Program-made: the position numbers and the translations under genes
Assembly (NCBI GenBank): GCA_902554885.1
Contig: CACDPV010000005.1
Span: 1-64,000 of the forward strand
Source of the DNA: Paracoccaceae bacterium
GTDB lineage: Bacteria > Pseudomonadota > Alphaproteobacteria > Rhodobacterales > Rhodobacteraceae
Direction: 5' to 3'
Length of the DNA: 64,000 bases
The notes under the pieces: generated by a model
Told to the model about the DNA's origin: nothing
The model's input: only the letters and a program-made list of their open reading frames with translations
The model's database searches: none
Part shown: in pieces, positions 1,997 to 9,414 of the stretch
Numbering within the stretch: position 1 is the first letter of the stretch
Layout: each line of letters starts with the position of its first letter

Positions 1997-3064
1997 CTAG
2001 CTTTCGACCTGTATCTGAGCTGGTTCGTTAGTCTGTATAACGTGGCCAATTACTGCGCATGGTACGACACTATTATTTTTAAGGTCGGTCAAAAGTGTCT
2101 TAAGCCGGGCTTTTGGTACGGAAATTAATAAGCCACCAGAGGTCTGCGCATCTGCTAACAAGAGTTGATGGTTGTGGTCTATATTAGCCGAAAATGTTGT
2201 TAGTGGCGCTGCGGTTTTTAGATTGCGCTCACTGCCTGATGGGCAGAGGCCACTATTAAGGAGGTTCTCTACGCCGCGGAAGAACGGTATTTTGGAATAG
2301 AACAGTTTAGCACCAAGTTTTTTTTGATTGGCAATTGAGGACGCTCTAAGCATATTACCAAGATGACCAAGCAAACCGAACCCGGTTACATCCGTAGCAG
2401 AGACAATATTATTATCCATCATCACTGAGGCTGCAGTATTATTTAGAGTTGTCATTGACAGGACGGCCTCATCTAATCTTTCAGAGGATAGGTATCCTCG
2501 TTTGGCCGCTGTAGTTAATACACCCGTGCCAATCTTTTTGGTTAAGACCAAATAATCACCTTCTTTTACGCCAGTATTATCGATGATTTTGTCTGGATGT
2601 ACTAAGCCCGTCACAAAAAGGCCAAATTTTGGCTCGGTATCAACAATTGAATGGCCACCTGCAATCGAAATTCCAGCTTTGCTACAAATACTGGCTGCGC
2701 CTTTCAAAACGGCACCAAGCCGATCTGTGCCTAATACTTCAACTGGCCAACTAACAAAGCTGAGGGCACTAATCGGCTTTGCACCCATAGCATAGATATC
2801 ACTAAGGGCATTGGTTGCCGCAATCCGTCCATAATCAAATGGGTCATCAACAATTGGTGGGAAAATATCGACGGTCTCCACTAGCGCTAATTCAGCGGAA
2901 AGTCGGTAAACTGCAGCGTCATCAGATCCAGCGTGGTCCACTAATAAATTAGGGTCATCCGCTTTGGGAAGATGGGCCAGCGCATGGGCGAGATCAGTTT
3001 GTGCAATCTTTGCAGCGCAACCCGCCGATTTTGCCATGCTGGTCAGAGAAGGTATTTTGGACAT
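1997..3064 (-). CDS. selD: Selenide, water dikinase (selenophosphate synthetase)
   Basis: SelD makes selenophosphate from selenide and ATP, the selenium donor for Sec-tRNA synthesis. The 355-residue product has the family N-terminus with catalytic Cys16 and Lys19 (AGCAAK, equivalent to E. coli Cys17 and Lys20). The second cysteine of the E. coli GCGC motif is alanine here, so this is the Cys form of SelD and not itself a selenoprotein. The Asp-rich metal/ATP region (VDIFPPIVDDPFDYGRIAA) and the Gly-rich segments ADAQTSGGLL and TDVTGFGLLGH are intact. ATG start with AAGG-type RBS upstream. It is convergent with tRNA-Sec and lies 219 nt downstream of the selenoprotein gene on the same strand. 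Confidence 0.95.
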   Translation of the reverse strand: MSKIPSLTSMAKSAGCAAKIAQTDLAHALAHLPKADDPNLLVDHAGSDDAAVYRLSAELALVETVDIFPPIVDDPFDYGRIAATNALSDIYAMGAKPISALSFVSWPVEVLGTDRLGAVLKGAASICSKAGISIAGGHSIVDTEPKFGLFVTGLVHPDKIIDNTGVKEGDYLVLTKKIGTGVLTTAAKRGYLSSERLDEAVLSMTTLNNTAASVMMDNNIVSATDVTGFGLLGHLGNMLRASSIANQKKLGAKLFYSKIPFFRGVENLLNSGLCPSGSERNLKTAAPLTTFSANIDHNHQLLLADAQTSGGLLISVPKARLKTLLTDLKNNSVVPCAVIGHVIQTNEPAQIQVES

Positions 3065-3283: not shown

Positions 3284-4519
3284 TCACCAACCTGCTGCTG
3301 ACGTTCCCGGCAACGGACCCTCAGACCAAAAACGAGGGGCCATCAGGGACATCTCGACAATCTGAAGCATAACTTTATTTTCAGAGGCGACAGATACAGC
3401 TTCCAGCAACAGAAGAAGCCGCCCGGCTTTGGTTTTTTCCCAAAACCATTCTCCCATTAGTTCTAAGTCGTCAATACTATCGCGGTGAGTGCGTGTCTCG
3501 GTGTAGTAGGCTTCCAGATCCTCGACTACTAGTTTCAGAAGTGGAATTGCAGGCACGCCTTTTCTAGGGCTTTTTGGAATTTCTCCGTCGAGAAAACTGA
3601 CGACGAAGGGCGCTAACTCTTCAATCGCAAGCCCACTGGCCCCAACTGTTGTGCGCCCCCTCGCTGCAATTGCGGTAGCGTAATCTGGTCTTAGAGCCTC
3701 CATTTCGTTTCTAACCTCGGATAGAACGACATCTACATCGCCAATGTCATCGACACTCAGAACCAGCTCGGGTGGTAGCGCATAGCCCATGCGACCTTCC
3801 TTTACAGGAATAATTTCGGGGAAATCGTCGATGATCGGGCCACTGCTTGCCTCCAGTAATTCGAACGCTGCGCGAATTACTTTTTTCTGAAATTCTGGCT
3901 CGTTAGGCTTACCCATACCCCTTCCCATTGGGAAATCTAAGAACAAAGAACGAGGGGGGCGAATTACCTCAATATGTTCTCGTACAAAACCTACTAGTAT
4001 TGTCGATAAACCCTCTGATTCAAAATAATGAGCCAGCCCGCACACGGCGCGCGTGCAAAACGGTCATATAGGTATTAGAAAAACCGTGTTCACACCTTCC
4101 TGCTTCATTTTAGCCGCAGCGGCTCGCGCTGATTTTTCCATCGTCACAGGATCTGCTGCGCCCATGAAAGAATAATGCTCGTCTGCAACTGAAGAAATTT
4201 CTCCGTCTGCTGCCATTTCTTCCAGTCTGTCGAGTGGTATAATTGTATTTAGGTCTTGTTGCCATGCAGATCTGTCAAACTCTACGGCGACGTGTGTCAT
4301 TACCAAGTCACGGTCAGTTTTGTGAAAGGTCCTGGAGTCTTTCGCAAGCCAAGAAAATGGCTTGTCTCCCCGCCGTGATACGGCTGCAGTCGAAACGATG
4401 GATACACGCCGCTCATTAGCTGGAACTGGGTTTGTCCATGACTCATTAGTTGGAACTGTAAGCTCAAGATTTGACATAAAGTGTCGGCCGACGGCGGGCA
4501 TTTCGGATATTTTTGTCAA
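3284..4519 (-). CDS. PrdB/GrdB-like selenoprotein with in-frame UGA (Sec152)
   Basis: Two abutting ORFs (4519-4067 and the frame continuing to 3284) are one gene read through TGA at 4066-4064. Across the TGA the protein reads LIPI-U-PFCTRAVCGLAHYF, giving a UxxC redox motif (Sec152, Cys155) at the position used by the glycine/sarcosine/betaine reductase selenoprotein B / proline reductase PrdB-like family. Flanking family features agree: RRGDKPF, DLVMTHVAVEFDR, YSFMGAADP before the Sec, and VREHIEVIRPPR, GKPNEPEFQ and RGRTTVGASG after it. Total is 411 residues. The predicted start is TTG at 4519, which fits the family N-terminus; ATG at 4501 is the alternative. Sec machinery is adjacent and a hairpin follows the UGA. 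The biochemical role in an aerobe is unknown; a thiol redox enzyme is likely, true glycine reductase is not, as no GrdA/GrdC-type partners are visible. Confidence 0.9.
4040..4056 (-). promoter_or_regulatory. SECIS-like hairpin just 3' of the Sec UGA
   Basis: On the minus strand a six-pair stem GCACGC/GTGTGC (with one G-U pair) closes a five-base loop GCGCC. The stem begins seven bases after the UGA at 4066-4064, so the apical loop sits about 14-18 bases past the UGA, within the window used by bacterial SECIS elements. The loop lacks an obvious E. coli fdhF-type GGU signature, so the exact SelB contact is uncertain. Confidence 0.6.
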
Positions 4520-4641: not shown

Positions 4642-5502
4642 TTAAAGCCCCATTCTATCAGCGATGCTTACCATTCTATACATTTCCCGCAATACTGGCT
4701 TCTCGATCAGTTTTCCGTCTATAACAACAAGTCCAGTATCTGCTTTTTCAAACTCTGCAATGGTGCGTCTTGCGCGAGAAATCTGGTCTGCAGATGGCGT
4801 GAATATTTCATTCAGGATAGGGATTTGCTTAGGATGTATTGAGCCCTTTCCAGAAAAACCAAGCATACGTGCTTGTTCGGCAGCAACTCGCATACCATCA
4901 AGGTCATCTAAATCAAGAAAAGGAACGTCTATAACGTCAAGACCCGCACTAGCGGCTGCGTGGACTACCTTTGACCGTGCATAAAGCAAAGGTTCCCAGG
5001 CCATGTCACAACGTAATTCAGGCGCCATATCAATAGCCCCAAAAAACATAGCATCCATCCTATCACTAGAGTGGGCGATTTCATAAGCGGCTTCTAATCC
5101 CTCATTGGTCTCAATGATGACGTGAAGGCGGGTATCATGCCCTGCCTCCGATAACAGCTGATCCAATATTAGAACTTCATCTGGGCTGCGCACCTTTGGC
5201 ATCATCAAGGCGGGAGGGGGTGTTTTTGTAGAAAGAATTGCATTTACATCTTCGATGCCAAATTTTTCACGCATTGAGTTGATGCGTACAATGCGCTCAA
5301 CACCATCATCAGAATGTGGTTCATTAAAAAGTGCTAATGCTTTTTTTCGTGCCTCAGCCTTATCTTTTGGTGCGATGCCATCTTCCAACTCCACACAAAC
5401 CATGTCAACGCCACTAGCAACGGCCTTCGGAAACATGTCGGGCCTAAGTCCAGGTACGAAAATGAAACTTCGACGTGGTTGCATGGAAGGTTTTTTTGTC
5501 AT
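4642..5502 (-). CDS. HpcH/HpaI-CitE family CoA lyase (malyl-CoA lyase-like)
   Basis: The 286-residue product belongs to the CitE-like TIM-barrel lyases that cleave or form 3-hydroxyacyl-CoA bonds (citryl-CoA, malyl-CoA, beta-methylmalyl-CoA). Family marks are the RSFIFVPGLRPDMFPKA start, VCVELEDGI, metal-site acid segment HVIIETNEGLEAA, FFGAIDMA, and the C-terminal GFSGKGSIHPKQIP. Its ATG overlaps the stop of the upstream molybdoenzyme gene (ATGA, 5499-5502), so the two are translationally coupled. It is the last gene of the five-gene operon at 4.6-11.1 kb. The substrate cannot be set from sequence; release of a small acid plus acetyl-CoA or glyoxylate is the natural inference. Confidence 0.85.
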   Translation of the reverse strand: MTKKPSMQPRRSFIFVPGLRPDMFPKAVASGVDMVCVELEDGIAPKDKAEARKKALALFNEPHSDDGVERIVRINSMREKFGIEDVNAILSTKTPPPALMMPKVRSPDEVLILDQLLSEAGHDTRLHVIIETNEGLEAAYEIAHSSDRMDAMFFGAIDMAPELRCDMAWEPLLYARSKVVHAAASAGLDVIDVPFLDLDDLDGMRVAAEQARMLGFSGKGSIHPKQIPILNEIFTPSADQISRARRTIAEFEKADTGLVVIDGKLIEKPVLREMYRMVSIADRMGL

Positions 5503-7811
5503 TGGTGTTTCCTGTCTTTAATAATCTCTGGTGGGTTAAACGCAGTTATATTCTGAGCAGGACCGTCATACAATGCGACTTCAACAAGACAGCTATGGGC
5601 TGCAGGGCCTTGGCCCAGCTTCGATGTGCCTACATCAGGTGACAACATGTTAGGGTTTCCGTGTTTACACATACTTTTCCTATTGGATGGGTCCACTGGG
5701 TCATACCAAGACCCGGTACTGATAATAATTACTCCTGGCATAACGTCTTTAGTAATTTTAACTCCACATAAGCATGCCCCTCTGTCATTGAAAACACGCA
5801 CGATGTCACCCTCATTAATACCTCGGATTTCAGCGTCATTGGGGTTGATCTCCATTGGTTGATGACCCTTTATTTTGATTGAAGAACTTAAAGCTCCATT
5901 ATCCATTTGTGAATGAAGCTTTGTCCTAGGTTGATTTGCGATTAGATGCAGGGGATAAATCTTTTCCTTTGCGCCCAGCCATTCGGCTGGTTCCATCCAG
6001 GTTGGATGACCGGGACAATCATCATAATTAAAACTATCAATGGTCTTAGAAAATAATTCAATTTTACCGCTAGGTGTTCTCAAAGGATTTTCCTCAGGAT
6101 CGTCAAAAAAATCTGAAAGAAAAATACGGTCATGATTCAACTTGGGTGATTTATAGAAGCCGGCTTCACGGAAGCTTTGATAATCGGGCATTTGAACATT
6201 CAATTTTGCCGCTTGCTCACAGGACTGTTCCCAGATCCATTTTTGCCAGTCTTCCGCAGAACGACCCTCGGTAAAAGCATCTTCTGTATCCATGTAACGA
6301 GCTATTCCAGTGAAAATATCATAATCATTCCTGGCTTCACCAATAGGTTCAATCGCCTTATCCATCGAAATCACGAAAGGATCACGAGGTGTCATTGCAA
6401 TATCTTGCCGTTCGAGGGTGGTTGTGCAGGGAAGGATTATATCGGCATGGCGTGCCAGAGCATTCCAACACCATTCATTGACAATAACCGTTGAAGGTTT
6501 CTCCCAGGCCTGTCTTAAGCGAGCAAGATCTTGATGATGATGGAATGGATTGCCCCCTGCCCAATAAATAAGATCAATATCGGGATAGGTATATTCACTG
6601 CCATTATAATCAAATTTTTTACCTGGATTTAGTAACATATCGCTTATCCGAGCAACCGGGATAAACGCACTAACGGAATTCTCTCCTCGAGGTAAAGGTG
6701 CGTATGGTATTTTAAAAACGTTGTTACCTAGGTGATTGGCAATTGTATAGCCATATCCTATTCCCCCACCAGGTTTGCCCATTTGACCAAGCATTGCAGC
6801 TAGGGCCGTTGCTGCCCAAAAAGGCTGCTCCCCATATTGTTGGCGGGTTAACGACCAGCTTACTGTCAACATAGTACGTTTATTGGTCATCTCTCTGGTG
6901 AGAGAAATAATGTCTGCCTCAGCCATACCGCTAATTTCAGCCGCCCAGGCAGGTGTTTTGGGGACCCCATCTTTTCTTCCAAGTAGATATGCTTGAAATA
7001 TATCAAATCCAACAGTGTACTTATCGAGAAAGTAAGTATTGTGCGAATTCTCAATAAGTAACTGATATGCCATGGCTAGCATCACGGCAACATCTGTATT
7101 GGGTCGCAAATTGTACCAGTCCTCGTCAATATCAGATTTTACATCCGAACGACGTGGGGAAAGATTGACAAACTTTGCTCCAGCCGCTGCGGCCTCTATT
7201 ACTCCAAGCCGCTGGATATGTGCACCGGTTCCGCCATTGCTGATCTGGCTGTTAAATGCAGGTAATCCACCAAAAGCCAGCATTAATTCAGTATTTTTGC
7301 AGACAGATTGCCAGCTTGTCTGGTGCGCCAATAATTCAATCAAATTATCGCCCAAAACATGTGGGATGATGACCTCACCCGCAGCAAGACTATATGTGTT
7401 TTTAGATGAGGTATATCCGCCGATTGAATTTAGAAAACGGTGGATCTGACTTTGAGCATGATGAAAACGACCCGCACTAGACCAACCGTAAGATCCGGCA
7501 TATATCGCTTGGTTGCCCTTAGTTTTGATAACGCGCTTTAATTCATTTGCTACGAGCTTTTCAGCTTCATCCCAACTCAATGTAACGAAACGTTCACTTC
7601 CACGTTTATGTGTTGCTGTGCCCGGACCACCATCTAACCAGCTTTCACGAGCTACTGGCTTGGTTATTCTGGTACGATCTTCTAGCAAATCAATGATCGA
7701 CGGACCAATTGGTGACGGATCAGGATCATGTCGAAAGGGATTAAGGGCTGAAAGGCGCCCATTTTTGACGACAAATTCATAAACTCCCCAATGTGAACTT
7801 GTGAGCTTCAT
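5499..7811 (-). CDS. BisC/TorA-type molybdopterin oxidoreductase, no leader
   Basis: This is a 770-residue molybdo-bis(PGD) enzyme of the DMSO/TMAO/biotin-sulfoxide reductase family. The G-S-Y-G-W-x-S segment at residues 106-112 provides the serine Mo ligand (Ser112 by alignment with the GWxS pattern). GGNPFHHHQDLARLRQAW, NEWCWNALARHADIILP and the C-terminal cofactor-binding TGSWYDP are typical. There is no Tat signal and no N-terminal Fe-S cysteine motif, so it should be cytoplasmic and BisC-like rather than periplasmic TorA. It follows the GcvT-like gene by 2 nt and overlaps the lyase gene by 4. Substrate is unknown: an S- or N-oxide, or a hydroxylation reaction, is possible in this operon. 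Confidence 0.88.
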   Translation of the reverse strand: MKLTSSHWGVYEFVVKNGRLSALNPFRHDPDPSPIGPSIIDLLEDRTRITKPVARESWLDGGPGTATHKRGSERFVTLSWDEAEKLVANELKRVIKTKGNQAIYAGSYGWSSAGRFHHAQSQIHRFLNSIGGYTSSKNTYSLAAGEVIIPHVLGDNLIELLAHQTSWQSVCKNTELMLAFGGLPAFNSQISNGGTGAHIQRLGVIEAAAAGAKFVNLSPRRSDVKSDIDEDWYNLRPNTDVAVMLAMAYQLLIENSHNTYFLDKYTVGFDIFQAYLLGRKDGVPKTPAWAAEISGMAEADIISLTREMTNKRTMLTVSWSLTRQQYGEQPFWAATALAAMLGQMGKPGGGIGYGYTIANHLGNNVFKIPYAPLPRGENSVSAFIPVARISDMLLNPGKKFDYNGSEYTYPDIDLIYWAGGNPFHHHQDLARLRQAWEKPSTVIVNEWCWNALARHADIILPCTTTLERQDIAMTPRDPFVISMDKAIEPIGEARNDYDIFTGIARYMDTEDAFTEGRSAEDWQKWIWEQSCEQAAKLNVQMPDYQSFREAGFYKSPKLNHDRIFLSDFFDDPEENPLRTPSGKIELFSKTIDSFNYDDCPGHPTWMEPAEWLGAKEKIYPLHLIANQPRTKLHSQMDNGALSSSIKIKGHQPMEINPNDAEIRGINEGDIVRVFNDRGACLCGVKITKDVMPGVIIISTGSWYDPVDPSNRKSMCKHGNPNMLSPDVGTSKLGQGPAAHSCLVEVALYDGPAQNITAFNPPEIIKDRKHQ

Positions 7812-7813
7812 AC

Positions 7814-9028
7814 TTAATTCATCCTATCTTTTTGGATAATATCAAGCGTTATACTTTCCTCTAAGTCAAGGTTTGCCATTTTAGGTTTTTTCTTATTCTT
7901 ATCGTAAAAAGGTAAAGCAACAATCGTACAATTATGCTTTGAGCTTTCCAAAGCGCCAATATAATAATTTTTTCCTAATCGGTCCTCCCCCAAGTCAAAT
8001 CTGACATAACCAATTCCCGCCTCGAACGCTGGAGAATAGGCGCCAGTCGTTATATACCCCAAAGCGTTTTTACCATCGTGAACAAGATCACCACTCTTGG
8101 GTATATAGCTGTCAGTTAGCACCCCATGAATTCGGTTGTCTTTATTACTTTTTTTAATGGCATCGTGGCCTATGAAATATTTTTTATCTTTATCGATAAA
8201 TCTATGAAGCCCAGCTTCATCAGGTGTCATGCTTACATCAAAATCACTGCCGCTATCAAGAATACCTGCCTCTATTCTGCGGATATTCATAGCCTGCATG
8301 CTACTGAAAACCATACCATATTTTTTACCAGAACGGATTAGCTCGTTCCATAAACGCTTGTAGTCTGTATTTTGGCCAAGAGTGTATATTTCATACCCTA
8401 ATTCACCGGTCCATCCTGTTCTAGATATTAATACTGAGTGTCCCGCAATCGTAAAAACCCCAGCCTTAAAATACCCCATGGTCTGGTCGACACTGCCATT
8501 TGTGGCTGTATTTATGATCGCAAGCGATTTTGGTCCTTGCACCTGAAGGACGCGCGATTGTGGGTCAGAAATTGATACCTCATAATTATGACTATGAGCC
8601 AGAAACCAGGTATCGAGATCACCATCGGGATGTACGAACCAAAACTTTTTCTCATCGAGGCGAAACAAAATACCGTCCATAAATAGGCCGCCATTGTAAG
8701 TGCAGGCTAATGTATAATGCCCACTACCAACTTTAAGCTGATCGCTCTGGCGAGTAAAAATTTGATCTAGAAATTCAATAACATCTGGCCCGCTAATCTC
8801 CACTGGCTTTTCTGGGACATCAAACAGTGCGGCTCTATTGCGTAATGCCCAATATGCCTCCTCGATATCTTCACCATTATAATGGGCAAAAAAGCGACCA
8901 GCTGCTAGTCGCAGGATGGTATCTTTATTAGCATAGCATTCATGGAAAGGTGATAACGCCTTGCTACCTGTATAAACAGAATGCACAGCGTCGAACTTCA
9001 GGGATGGCAGCTCAGGAATACTCATCAT
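7814..9028 (-). CDS. GcvT-fold aminomethyltransferase, DmdA-like (copy 1)
   Basis: The 404-residue single-domain GcvT-fold protein would move a methyl or methylene group to tetrahydrofolate. It has the family segments FDVPEKPVEISGPD, the VLQVQGPKS segment, RTGWTGELGYEIY and IRRIEAGILD. It is clearly paralogous to the protein at 18748-19914, which shares FDVPEKPVEISGPD, LACT..GG.FMDG, SRVLQVQGP and ..MTP.EAGL. Length and layout resemble the DMSP demethylase DmdA and other stand-alone demethylases, but specificity cannot be read. Its ATG (9028) overlaps the VOC gene stop (ATGA), placing it mid-operon between the VOC and molybdoenzyme genes. Confidence 0.82.
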   Translation of the reverse strand: MMSIPELPSLKFDAVHSVYTGSKALSPFHECYANKDTILRLAAGRFFAHYNGEDIEEAYWALRNRAALFDVPEKPVEISGPDVIEFLDQIFTRQSDQLKVGSGHYTLACTYNGGLFMDGILFRLDEKKFWFVHPDGDLDTWFLAHSHNYEVSISDPQSRVLQVQGPKSLAIINTATNGSVDQTMGYFKAGVFTIAGHSVLISRTGWTGELGYEIYTLGQNTDYKRLWNELIRSGKKYGMVFSSMQAMNIRRIEAGILDSGSDFDVSMTPDEAGLHRFIDKDKKYFIGHDAIKKSNKDNRIHGVLTDSYIPKSGDLVHDGKNALGYITTGAYSPAFEAGIGYVRFDLGEDRLGKNYYIGALESSKHNCTIVALPFYDKNKKKPKMANLDLEESITLDIIQKDRMN

Positions 9029-9414
9029 GGAAACTCTTTTTCATGCACGAAACAAAGTTTGTTTCCGTCAAGATCTCGAACATAGGCGTAGTATATTTTT
9101 CCATGTGCTGGACGAAAACCTGGAGCCCCCTCGTCCTTTCCTCCTGCACCAATGCCGGCCTTATGGCAGTCATCAACAATTTGGCTGGTTTCTACTGCAA
9201 TCGCAATCATAGTGCCGTTTCCAGAGTTTGCGCGGTTACCATCAAATGGTTTGGTAACATAAAATTCAACTTTTTCTGGCTTACTTTTTGGAGCGTAAGC
9301 AGCAAAATCTTTATCGGTTTCTACACGAACCATATTCATCTTAGGCATTAATAGATCATAAAATTTGACTGCACTCTCTAGATCGTTTGTTCCAACCATT
9401 ACATACGCAATCAT
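9025..9414 (-). CDS. VOC (glyoxalase/bleomycin-resistance fold) protein
   Basis: The 129-residue protein opens with the canonical VOC half-module MIAYVMVGTNDLESAVKFYD and closes with YYAYVRDLDGNKLCFVHE, whose late acidic residues are typical metal ligands. VOC proteins are small metal-dependent lyases, isomerases, dioxygenases or binding proteins; this one has no assigned reaction. An AAGGAG-type RBS precedes the ATG at 9414. It lies 22 nt after the GMC oxidoreductase gene and overlaps the GcvT-like gene by 4 nt, so it probably processes or binds an intermediate of the same pathway. Confidence 0.85.
   Translation of the reverse strand: MIAYVMVGTNDLESAVKFYDLLMPKMNMVRVETDKDFAAYAPKSKPEKVEFYVTKPFDGNRANSGNGTMIAIAVETSQIVDDCHKAGIGAGGKDEGAPGFRPAHGKIYYAYVRDLDGNKLCFVHEKEFP

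Follow-up and report, generated by a model that had tools for sequence, protein, structure and literature searches.

A long PrdB-like protein with an in-frame UGA and its compact selenocysteine cassette in a bacterium of the Rhodobacteraceae

Results

Two reading frames joined by an in-frame UGA

The stretch of DNA under study (the window) comprises 64,000 nucleotides from a Paracoccaceae bacterium (contig CACDPV010000005.1, assembly GCA_902554885.1). Reading of its minus strand with genetic code table 11 gave two open reading frames, 4519-4064 (151 amino acids, TTG start) and 4045-3284 (253 amino acids). An initial annotation had joined both in one frame through the TGA at 4066-4064, and readthrough translation bore this out: the coding sequence of a predicted long PrdB-like selenoprotein at 3284-4519 on the minus strand begins with TTG, ends with a TGA stop at 3286-3284 and specifies 411 residues including LIPI-U152-PFC. 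The in-frame UGA, a predicted selenocysteine (Sec) codon, is codon 152 (4064-4066, minus strand) and opens a U152-P-F-C155 redox motif (4055-4066, minus strand). When the window was scanned loosely for TGA codons in frame next to a Cys, seven places were returned, 4066 among them.

Relatives were collected by a pattern-based scan of one genome per species (84,980 species), which returned 30 related loci, 24 of them close (L009-L032, 76-99% identity). Codon 152 was TGA in 24 of these 24. None of the homologues ended at the UGA; similarity in the close ones reached the end of the protein. An alignment of 22 rows (A1) had a mean column identity of 87% and continued without gaps across the UGA up to the final GTSAAGW, except for one row that ends at its contig end. 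The start position was common to 22 relatives, with TTG, ATG or GTG as the codon, and was often preceded by an AGGA- or GGAA-like stretch. Residues 152 and 155 were invariant in a 25-row alignment (A2). A Cys/Sec column at residue 152 was also present in the wider superfamily: all 69 aligned N-domains have Sec (TGA) or Cys there. Cys codons occur in the short form L008 and in the long forms L046 and L047, which are distant relatives. Possible carriers named among the close loci are Roseovarius sp. (L015) and strain EL129 (L016). Four of the close homologues (L011, L024, L029 and L032) come from bins labelled Halieaceae, Granulosicoccaceae, Porticoccaceae and Opitutia, which may reflect transfers or binning errors.

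A true stop at codon 152, followed by a decaying or separate gene, would agree with the two frames given by table 11 and with the GTG at codon 159, the table 11 start of the second frame, which is present in 18 of 18 genes but lies within a frozen stretch (see below). Against it stand the TGA of all 24 genes with protein conservation on either side, the distant Cys homologues that read straight through, and the Sec machinery adjoining the gene. Because of the conservation across the UGA a true stop is very unlikely, to the point of being negligible, and with TGA conserved and A1 continuous past it we rejected a stop or pseudogene. We concluded from the sequence that 3284-4519 (minus strand) is a single predicted selenoprotein gene, whose UGA152 would be read as Sec by the adjoining selB, selC and selD.

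A putative SECIS hairpin downstream of the UGA

A putative bacterial SECIS hairpin was located at 4031-4057 on the minus strand (core stem 4036-4052, loop CGUGN) by synonymous constraint and covariation. Codons 156 to 161 were the same at every base in 18 of 18 genes and lie in the strongest excess synonymous conservation of the gene. Over 11 codons, excess synonymous identity peaked at 0.395 in windows that begin at codons 150-157, as compared to a mean of 0 with an SD of 0.079. For this codon comparison L022, L024, L027 and L031 were dropped because of N or truncation, and L009, L011 and L032 were not entered. Among the wider long-form Sec genes, ACGCGCGCCGUG was present exactly in nine of 15 and with one or two changes in the other six, while the motif was altered in the Cys forms L046 and L047.

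A further alignment, A4, has 22 rows (8 close and 14 wider). In the covariation analysis two pairs of the 9-pair hairpin were changed on both sides. The covariation score and the number of paired cells exceeded those of 500 out of 500 shuffles, and the hairpin was superior to all slid versions in paired cells, compensated cells and covariation score. On the other hand, in 13 of 21 sequences two of the nine pairs did not form, and pair types were not more numerous than in shuffles. Single-sequence folding energy showed no excess stability over shuffles (z of -0.92 for the window) and was rejected as evidence for a SECIS. Because the folding energies are ordinary, the case for a SECIS rests on constraint, not on stability. 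Taken together, sequence comparison places a putative SECIS-like hairpin shortly after the UGA, at a distance of no more than tens of bases.

Domain organization and predicted structure

The whole-protein model had a pLDDT of 85 and a pTM of 0.86 and predicted a Rossmann-like N-domain followed by a helical C-domain. The Rossmann-like alpha/beta domain, a PrdB homologue, covers residues 33-243 (3791-4423, minus strand) as delineated by the model and fold-alignment rows, the TIGR04483 match spanning residues 20-223. Residue 152, modelled as Cys in place of Sec, is positioned after a strand at the start of a helix (153-168). The C-terminal helical domain comprises residues 244-411 (3287-3790, minus strand), the last ~14 of which are of low confidence in the model. 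Modelled alone it adopted a similar fold with a pLDDT of 81 and a pTM of 0.78.

The initial annotation had left the C-terminal part without an assigned role. Indeed it belongs to no Pfam family: the domain of the window had no match, and 25 members gave six stray single-member matches with a best E of 0.083. It nevertheless appears here as a conserved helical domain of its own. Fold searches with the N-domain returned generic Rossmann-type rows only (best Z 7.7, 141 aligned, rmsd 3.9; best Foldseek E 0.014), and those with the C-domain a best Z of 4.4 (111 aligned, rmsd 4.5) and a best Foldseek E of 1.1; without a confident relative both folds are left unassigned, which does not show that either is new. 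A sequence search of the PDB yielded one weak Dsb-type match (E 0.7), a profile search of the PDB none.

A C-domain profile (A3), built from 16 of the genomes matched plus the family of the window, matched 23 of 289 genomes of the class with 25 matches and nothing outside PrdB-like genes. Twenty-four of the matches were directly after a PrdB-like match; the 25th is short and located at a contig start of G317, the remainder of its gene being cut at another contig end. In a draw of 398 genomes of the phylum the profile matched the genome of the window only. Thus, in the genomes sampled, the C-domain is found only behind the long PrdB-like domain. The match in G070 contains an in-frame TAG.

A distinct long family of PrdB-like proteins

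The protein had been described as PrdB/GrdB-like. The PrdB-like part of this label held on both sides of the UGA, as TIGR04483 matched residues 20-223 with an E of 3.2e-25. The protein is, however, neither PrdB nor GrdB itself: it scored 89 bits where the equivalog cut-off of TIGR04483 is 300 bits, it falls into a separate clade, and a PF09338 partner was not found (see below). The GRDB family PF07355, which had been proposed for the search, was matched with 30.8 bits versus a cut-off of 22, but over 70 of 347 positions only. The GrdB models TIGR01917, TIGR01918, NF040794 and NF040795 gave 21.6-39.6 bits, below their cut-offs of 65-800. Of 289 genomes sampled from the class, 36 had TIGR04483 matches; most of these matches contain a single in-frame TGA, and all stay below the cut-off. 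In each of two alphaproteobacterial genomes, G223 and G317, there were six PrdB-like matches, every one with a single in-frame TGA, which amounts to an expansion of PrdB-like selenoproteins. Viral contigs had no relative.

A profile of the long-form N-domain split the proteins cleanly: long forms scored at least 328 bits and all others at most 152 bits. In a maximum-likelihood tree of 69 N-domains, which omits L083, the duplicates L101, L103, L104 and L106 and one L097 row, the 30 long-form rows made up one side of a branch with a support of 100/99. The marine family of the window (100/99) was nested in the long form. Six PrdB rows from plasmids of Bacillota (clostridia, enterococcus, lactobacillus), three of which have prdA annotated alongside, formed a separate group (100/100), and the protein of the window did not group with PrdB. 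Common to the long form and the PrdB of Bacillota are the core residues F55, R63, H76, D82, D89, P95, M119, G120 and U152 as well as C155, R157, E167, G170, T173, R190, G199, G203 and Q211. By these sequence criteria the protein is a member of a separate family of long PrdB-like proteins, predicted to consist of a Rossmann-like domain and a C-terminal helical domain.

The Cys forms branched within the Sec clade at moderately supported nodes (87/71 and 91/88), and this nesting suggests a secondary loss of Sec. In L046 and L047 the Cys codon is accompanied by changes in the hairpin motif, and the flanks fetched contain no tRNA-Sec, consistent with a Sec-to-Cys conversion.

Sec machinery next to the gene

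The genes selB, tRNA-Sec and selD adjoin the PrdB-like gene as previously stated: selB and selD exceeded the NCBIfam cut-offs, and tRNA-Sec was detected by ARAGORN and Rfam. The selenophosphate synthetase gene selD is at 1997-3064 on the minus strand (TIGR00476, 362.6 bits) and has no in-frame TGA. It is followed on the plus strand by selC, a tRNA-Sec with a UCA anticodon at 1848-1943 (RF01852, 70.4 bits), and by selB at 1-1839 (TIGR00475, 332.5 bits), the 5' end of which is cut by the contig start and which shares 92% identity with the complete selB of L118. The prdB-like gene and selD thus point toward selC and selB. In relatives selA lies beyond or next to selB; the selA of the window itself would lie off the contig. 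By sequence the host is therefore predicted to have selA, selB, selC and selD, the latter three in the window and selA by its relatives.

Within the genus (16 genomes) the gene, a selD over cut-off and a tRNA-Sec of ~70 bits were present in the same six genomes and absent from the other ten. Since the genomes are incomplete (58-96% complete, G000 53%), these absences are soft. The Rfam tRNA-Sec family matched 61 of 61 genomes and 14 of 14 controls, above cut-off in 29 and 5, respectively, and tRNA-Sec was counted only near 70 bits, i.e. in the six carriers of the gene and in G043 and G050. Matches of 47-48 bits exceeded the Rfam cut-off in the non-carriers G003 and G006; these were read as other tRNAs because the carriers G009, G011 and G012 have a second match of the same score. 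G043 and G050, two genomes of the class with a tRNA-Sec of ~70 bits and no match to the long PrdB-like protein, probably use Sec in other selenoproteins.

A comparison of carriers and non-carriers delimited the block. In G012 a prdB-like-selD-selC-selB-selA block is located between a CitE-like gene and a gene for 468 residues, while in G003 these two genes are adjacent with ~250 bp between them. The DNA of both genomes is 87-88% identical up to both block edges, which enclose ~6.3 kb in G012 versus 59 bp left in G003. The CitE/RipC-like lyase gene of the window (4642-5502, minus strand) is the corresponding chromosomal flank outside the cassette; it directly adjoins the cassette in L118 and is also present where L120 has the empty site. 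G004 and G001 have a homologous Sec block surrounded by unrelated genes. Compact sel genes plus a selenoprotein gene thus are present or absent as a unit at one site, as would be expected of a portable cassette. The different sites in one genus, together with close copies in Rhodobacteraceae and SAR116, suggest that the cassette may have moved between lineages; G003 may either have lost the block or never have had it.

The linkage was also seen in the fetched flanks of other loci. tRNA-Sec was near the gene in 19 of 19 close loci, in nine of 18 wider Sec-type long loci and in none of two Cys-type loci; short PrdB-like TGA loci had none in 20. ARAGORN was run on 19 of the 24 close loci, L009, L011, L014, L024 and L032 being left out, and on 18 of 21 wider loci, without G300:C98, G116:C44 and G231:C69. 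The 20 short control loci, a subset of the short TGA loci matched by TIGR04483, are from 13 genomes, and some of their stretches, like those of several of the 18 wider loci, stop at contig ends. Near the gene in L015, L016, L071, L072, L084 and L085, selD is fused to a pyridine-nucleotide oxidoreductase domain, as indicated by TIGR03169 over cut-off in the scanned L015, L071, L084 and L085 and by size and similarity in L016 and L072.

We also searched the genus for other selenoproteins. FdhA matches were without an in-frame TGA, and the carriers G001 and G004 had none over cut-off. For the two further families searched, the AhpC/TSA matches listed had no TGA and Rdx/SelW gave no match.

Partners and neighbouring genes

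PF09338, the Pfam family of the proproteins PrdA and GrdE, matched in none of the 16 genomes of the genus, all of them incomplete, with no match in the controls either, and in neither of two large carrier genomes (3.9 and 5.0 Mb). As a positive check it matched in both of two plasmids carrying an annotated prdA. If neither a missed gene nor an unrelated substitute for PrdA is at play, the mechanism of D-proline reductase cannot run there as described.

A GcvH gene is located 68 bp downstream on the same strand in L018, L020, L021 and L023, the copy in L020 exceeding the NCBIfam cut-off; the four share what we take to be the lipoyl-lysine region. Upstream genes of GST type occur in L071, with a homologue in L072, and, as a weak match, in L022. 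The GcvH and GST neighbours are a hint at thiol donors, each limited to few loci.

In the window, 4642-9414 on the minus strand is operon-like with the CitE/RipC-like lyase, a BisC-family S/N-oxide reductase, a GcvT/demethylase-like protein and a small ORF. We rejected this operon as a general partner: among the loci compared it adjoins the gene only in the window's near relatives L009, L010, L011 and L014, its first two genes are present in G003 without the Sec block, and the block is elsewhere in G004 and G001.

Discussion

Function of the long PrdB-like protein

We regard it as rather probable, on the basis of sequence, that the long PrdB-like selenoprotein carried by the cassette is a Sec/Cys thiol-dependent reductase with PrdB-type chemistry that operates without a pyruvoyl partner. 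The selenolate of Sec152 would attack a small substrate, bound between the N- and C-terminal domains, at an electrophilic centre, be it carbon, sulfur or selenium. Cys155 would then resolve the adduct by formation of a Se-S bond, which a dithiol donor such as thioredoxin, glutathione or a lipoyl protein would reduce again. Our guess is that the C-domain supplies the substrate pocket as PrdA does in D-proline reductase.

Alternatively, the protein may mainly serve aerobic cells of the surface ocean as a thiol-dependent peroxidase or repair enzyme in which Sec152 and Cys155 reduce peroxides or oxidised thiols. The UxxC motif, which in the predicted model follows a strand and opens a helix, the GST-like and lipoyl H-protein neighbours at some loci and a peroxidase activity of GrdB, as given in the title of Grobe 2007, would fit such a role. 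Yet the conserved PrdB-type core and a C-domain confined to the family point to a particular organic substrate, and no peroxidase family was matched in the profile searches, so that we consider a peroxidase unlikely.

A role in selenium metabolism, e.g. provision of reduced selenium for SelD or reporting of the selenium status by UGA readthrough, might explain the repeated linkage with selD, selC, selB and selA, the presence of selD in six of six carriers of the genus and a selD that ends ~15 bp upstream of the gene in L080. However, the Cys forms L069 and L070 are without selA, selB, selD and tRNA-Sec in the stretches fetched. G223, G231 and G317 hold several PrdB-like TGA genes, and their long gene (L086-L088) is without a nearby tRNA-Sec. 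Furthermore, Sec systems elsewhere function without a long PrdB-like protein. A function of this kind thus seems quite improbable to us.

D-proline reductase proper, with the protein acting as PrdB in proline reduction, was rejected by score, clade and partner and is most improbable: the TIGR04483 match and a Sec at residue 152 as in the C. sticklandii protein speak for it, while the score below the family cut-off, the separate clade, the lack of a PF09338 partner in the genomes searched and the extra domain speak against it.

Returning to the thiol-dependent reductase, we tentatively propose, with less than even confidence, that the block is a self-contained, horizontally moving module that provides Sec for one pyruvoyl-independent PrdB-type reductase, with the C-domain in the place of PrdA and an abundant, unrecognised marine compound as the substrate.

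'PrdB' ranks among the most frequent selenoproteins of the surface ocean, yet is named after an anaerobic Stickland enzyme. Because the long family is separate and no pyruvoyl partner was found in the genomes searched, the proline-reductase label can mislead. The locus also provides an alphaproteobacterial case of a Sec trait that is present or absent along with its cargo gene, which here is not that of formate dehydrogenase. With the trait tied to this cargo gene, the reason for Sec in an aerobic marine bacterium would be testable by deletion of a single gene in a cultured carrier.

Comparison with known systems

According to the accessible part of one report, PrdB of C. sticklandii has 242 amino acids with Sec at residue 152, and in the mechanism proposed there the pyruvoyl group of PrdA binds the substrate, the Sec of PrdB attacks and a Cys resolves (PMC3091704). 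The long form resembles PrdB (TIGR04483) in a homologous domain that extends across the UGA, the UxxC motif, Sec152 and the core residues. It differs by 411 versus ~240 residues, the separate clade, the extra helical domain, a score below cut-off and the lack of a PF09338 partner in the genomes searched. With GrdB (PF07355) it shares a match over cut-off at residues 80-148 and a Sec followed by a Cys; unlike in GrdB the match is limited to profile positions 275-344 of 347, no GrdE-type PF09338 match was found, and UPFC is without the third Cys of the UxxCxxC that the available text gives for GrdB (PMC13188914).

In the passages accessible to us, 'PrdB' UxxC selenoproteins of ocean metagenomes, counted since 2005, are abundant with 42 in the Sargasso Sea and 235 in GOS (PMC1088965, PMC2398784). 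They are like the long family in motif, family label and habitat, and by analogy the long family very probably makes up part of these counts. A C-terminal domain, a separate clade or a Sec cassette is not mentioned in the accessible parts of these accounts. Short alphaproteobacterial PrdB-like selenoproteins share the domain and the Sec/Cys column. Unlike the long form they have ~265-320 residues and no C-domain, are on the other side of the tree and have tRNA-Sec near none of 20 loci; plasmid records name them 'glycine/sarcosine/betaine reductase selenoprotein B family protein'.

As far as the available text of two reports goes, formate dehydrogenase is the only or main Sec protein of Alphaproteobacteria (PMC1794560, PMC8124441), and selABC plus a selenoprotein gene were proposed to move together (PMC1794560). 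The block described here is like the selABC(D)-fdh clusters of Alpha- and Betaproteobacteria in being a compact Sec cassette with its own selenoprotein and a proposed mobility as a unit (PMC1794560, PMC8124441). It is unlike them in its cargo, a long PrdB-like protein, with the FdhA matches of the genus being without an in-frame TGA. In the accessible portions of the open-access literature searched we found no description of the long family or of the domain private to it, nor of the lack of a pyruvoyl partner or of the family as cassette cargo. While the UxxC 'PrdB' kind itself was already known, a long family separate from PrdB and its role as the cargo of a portable Sec cassette appear to be new.
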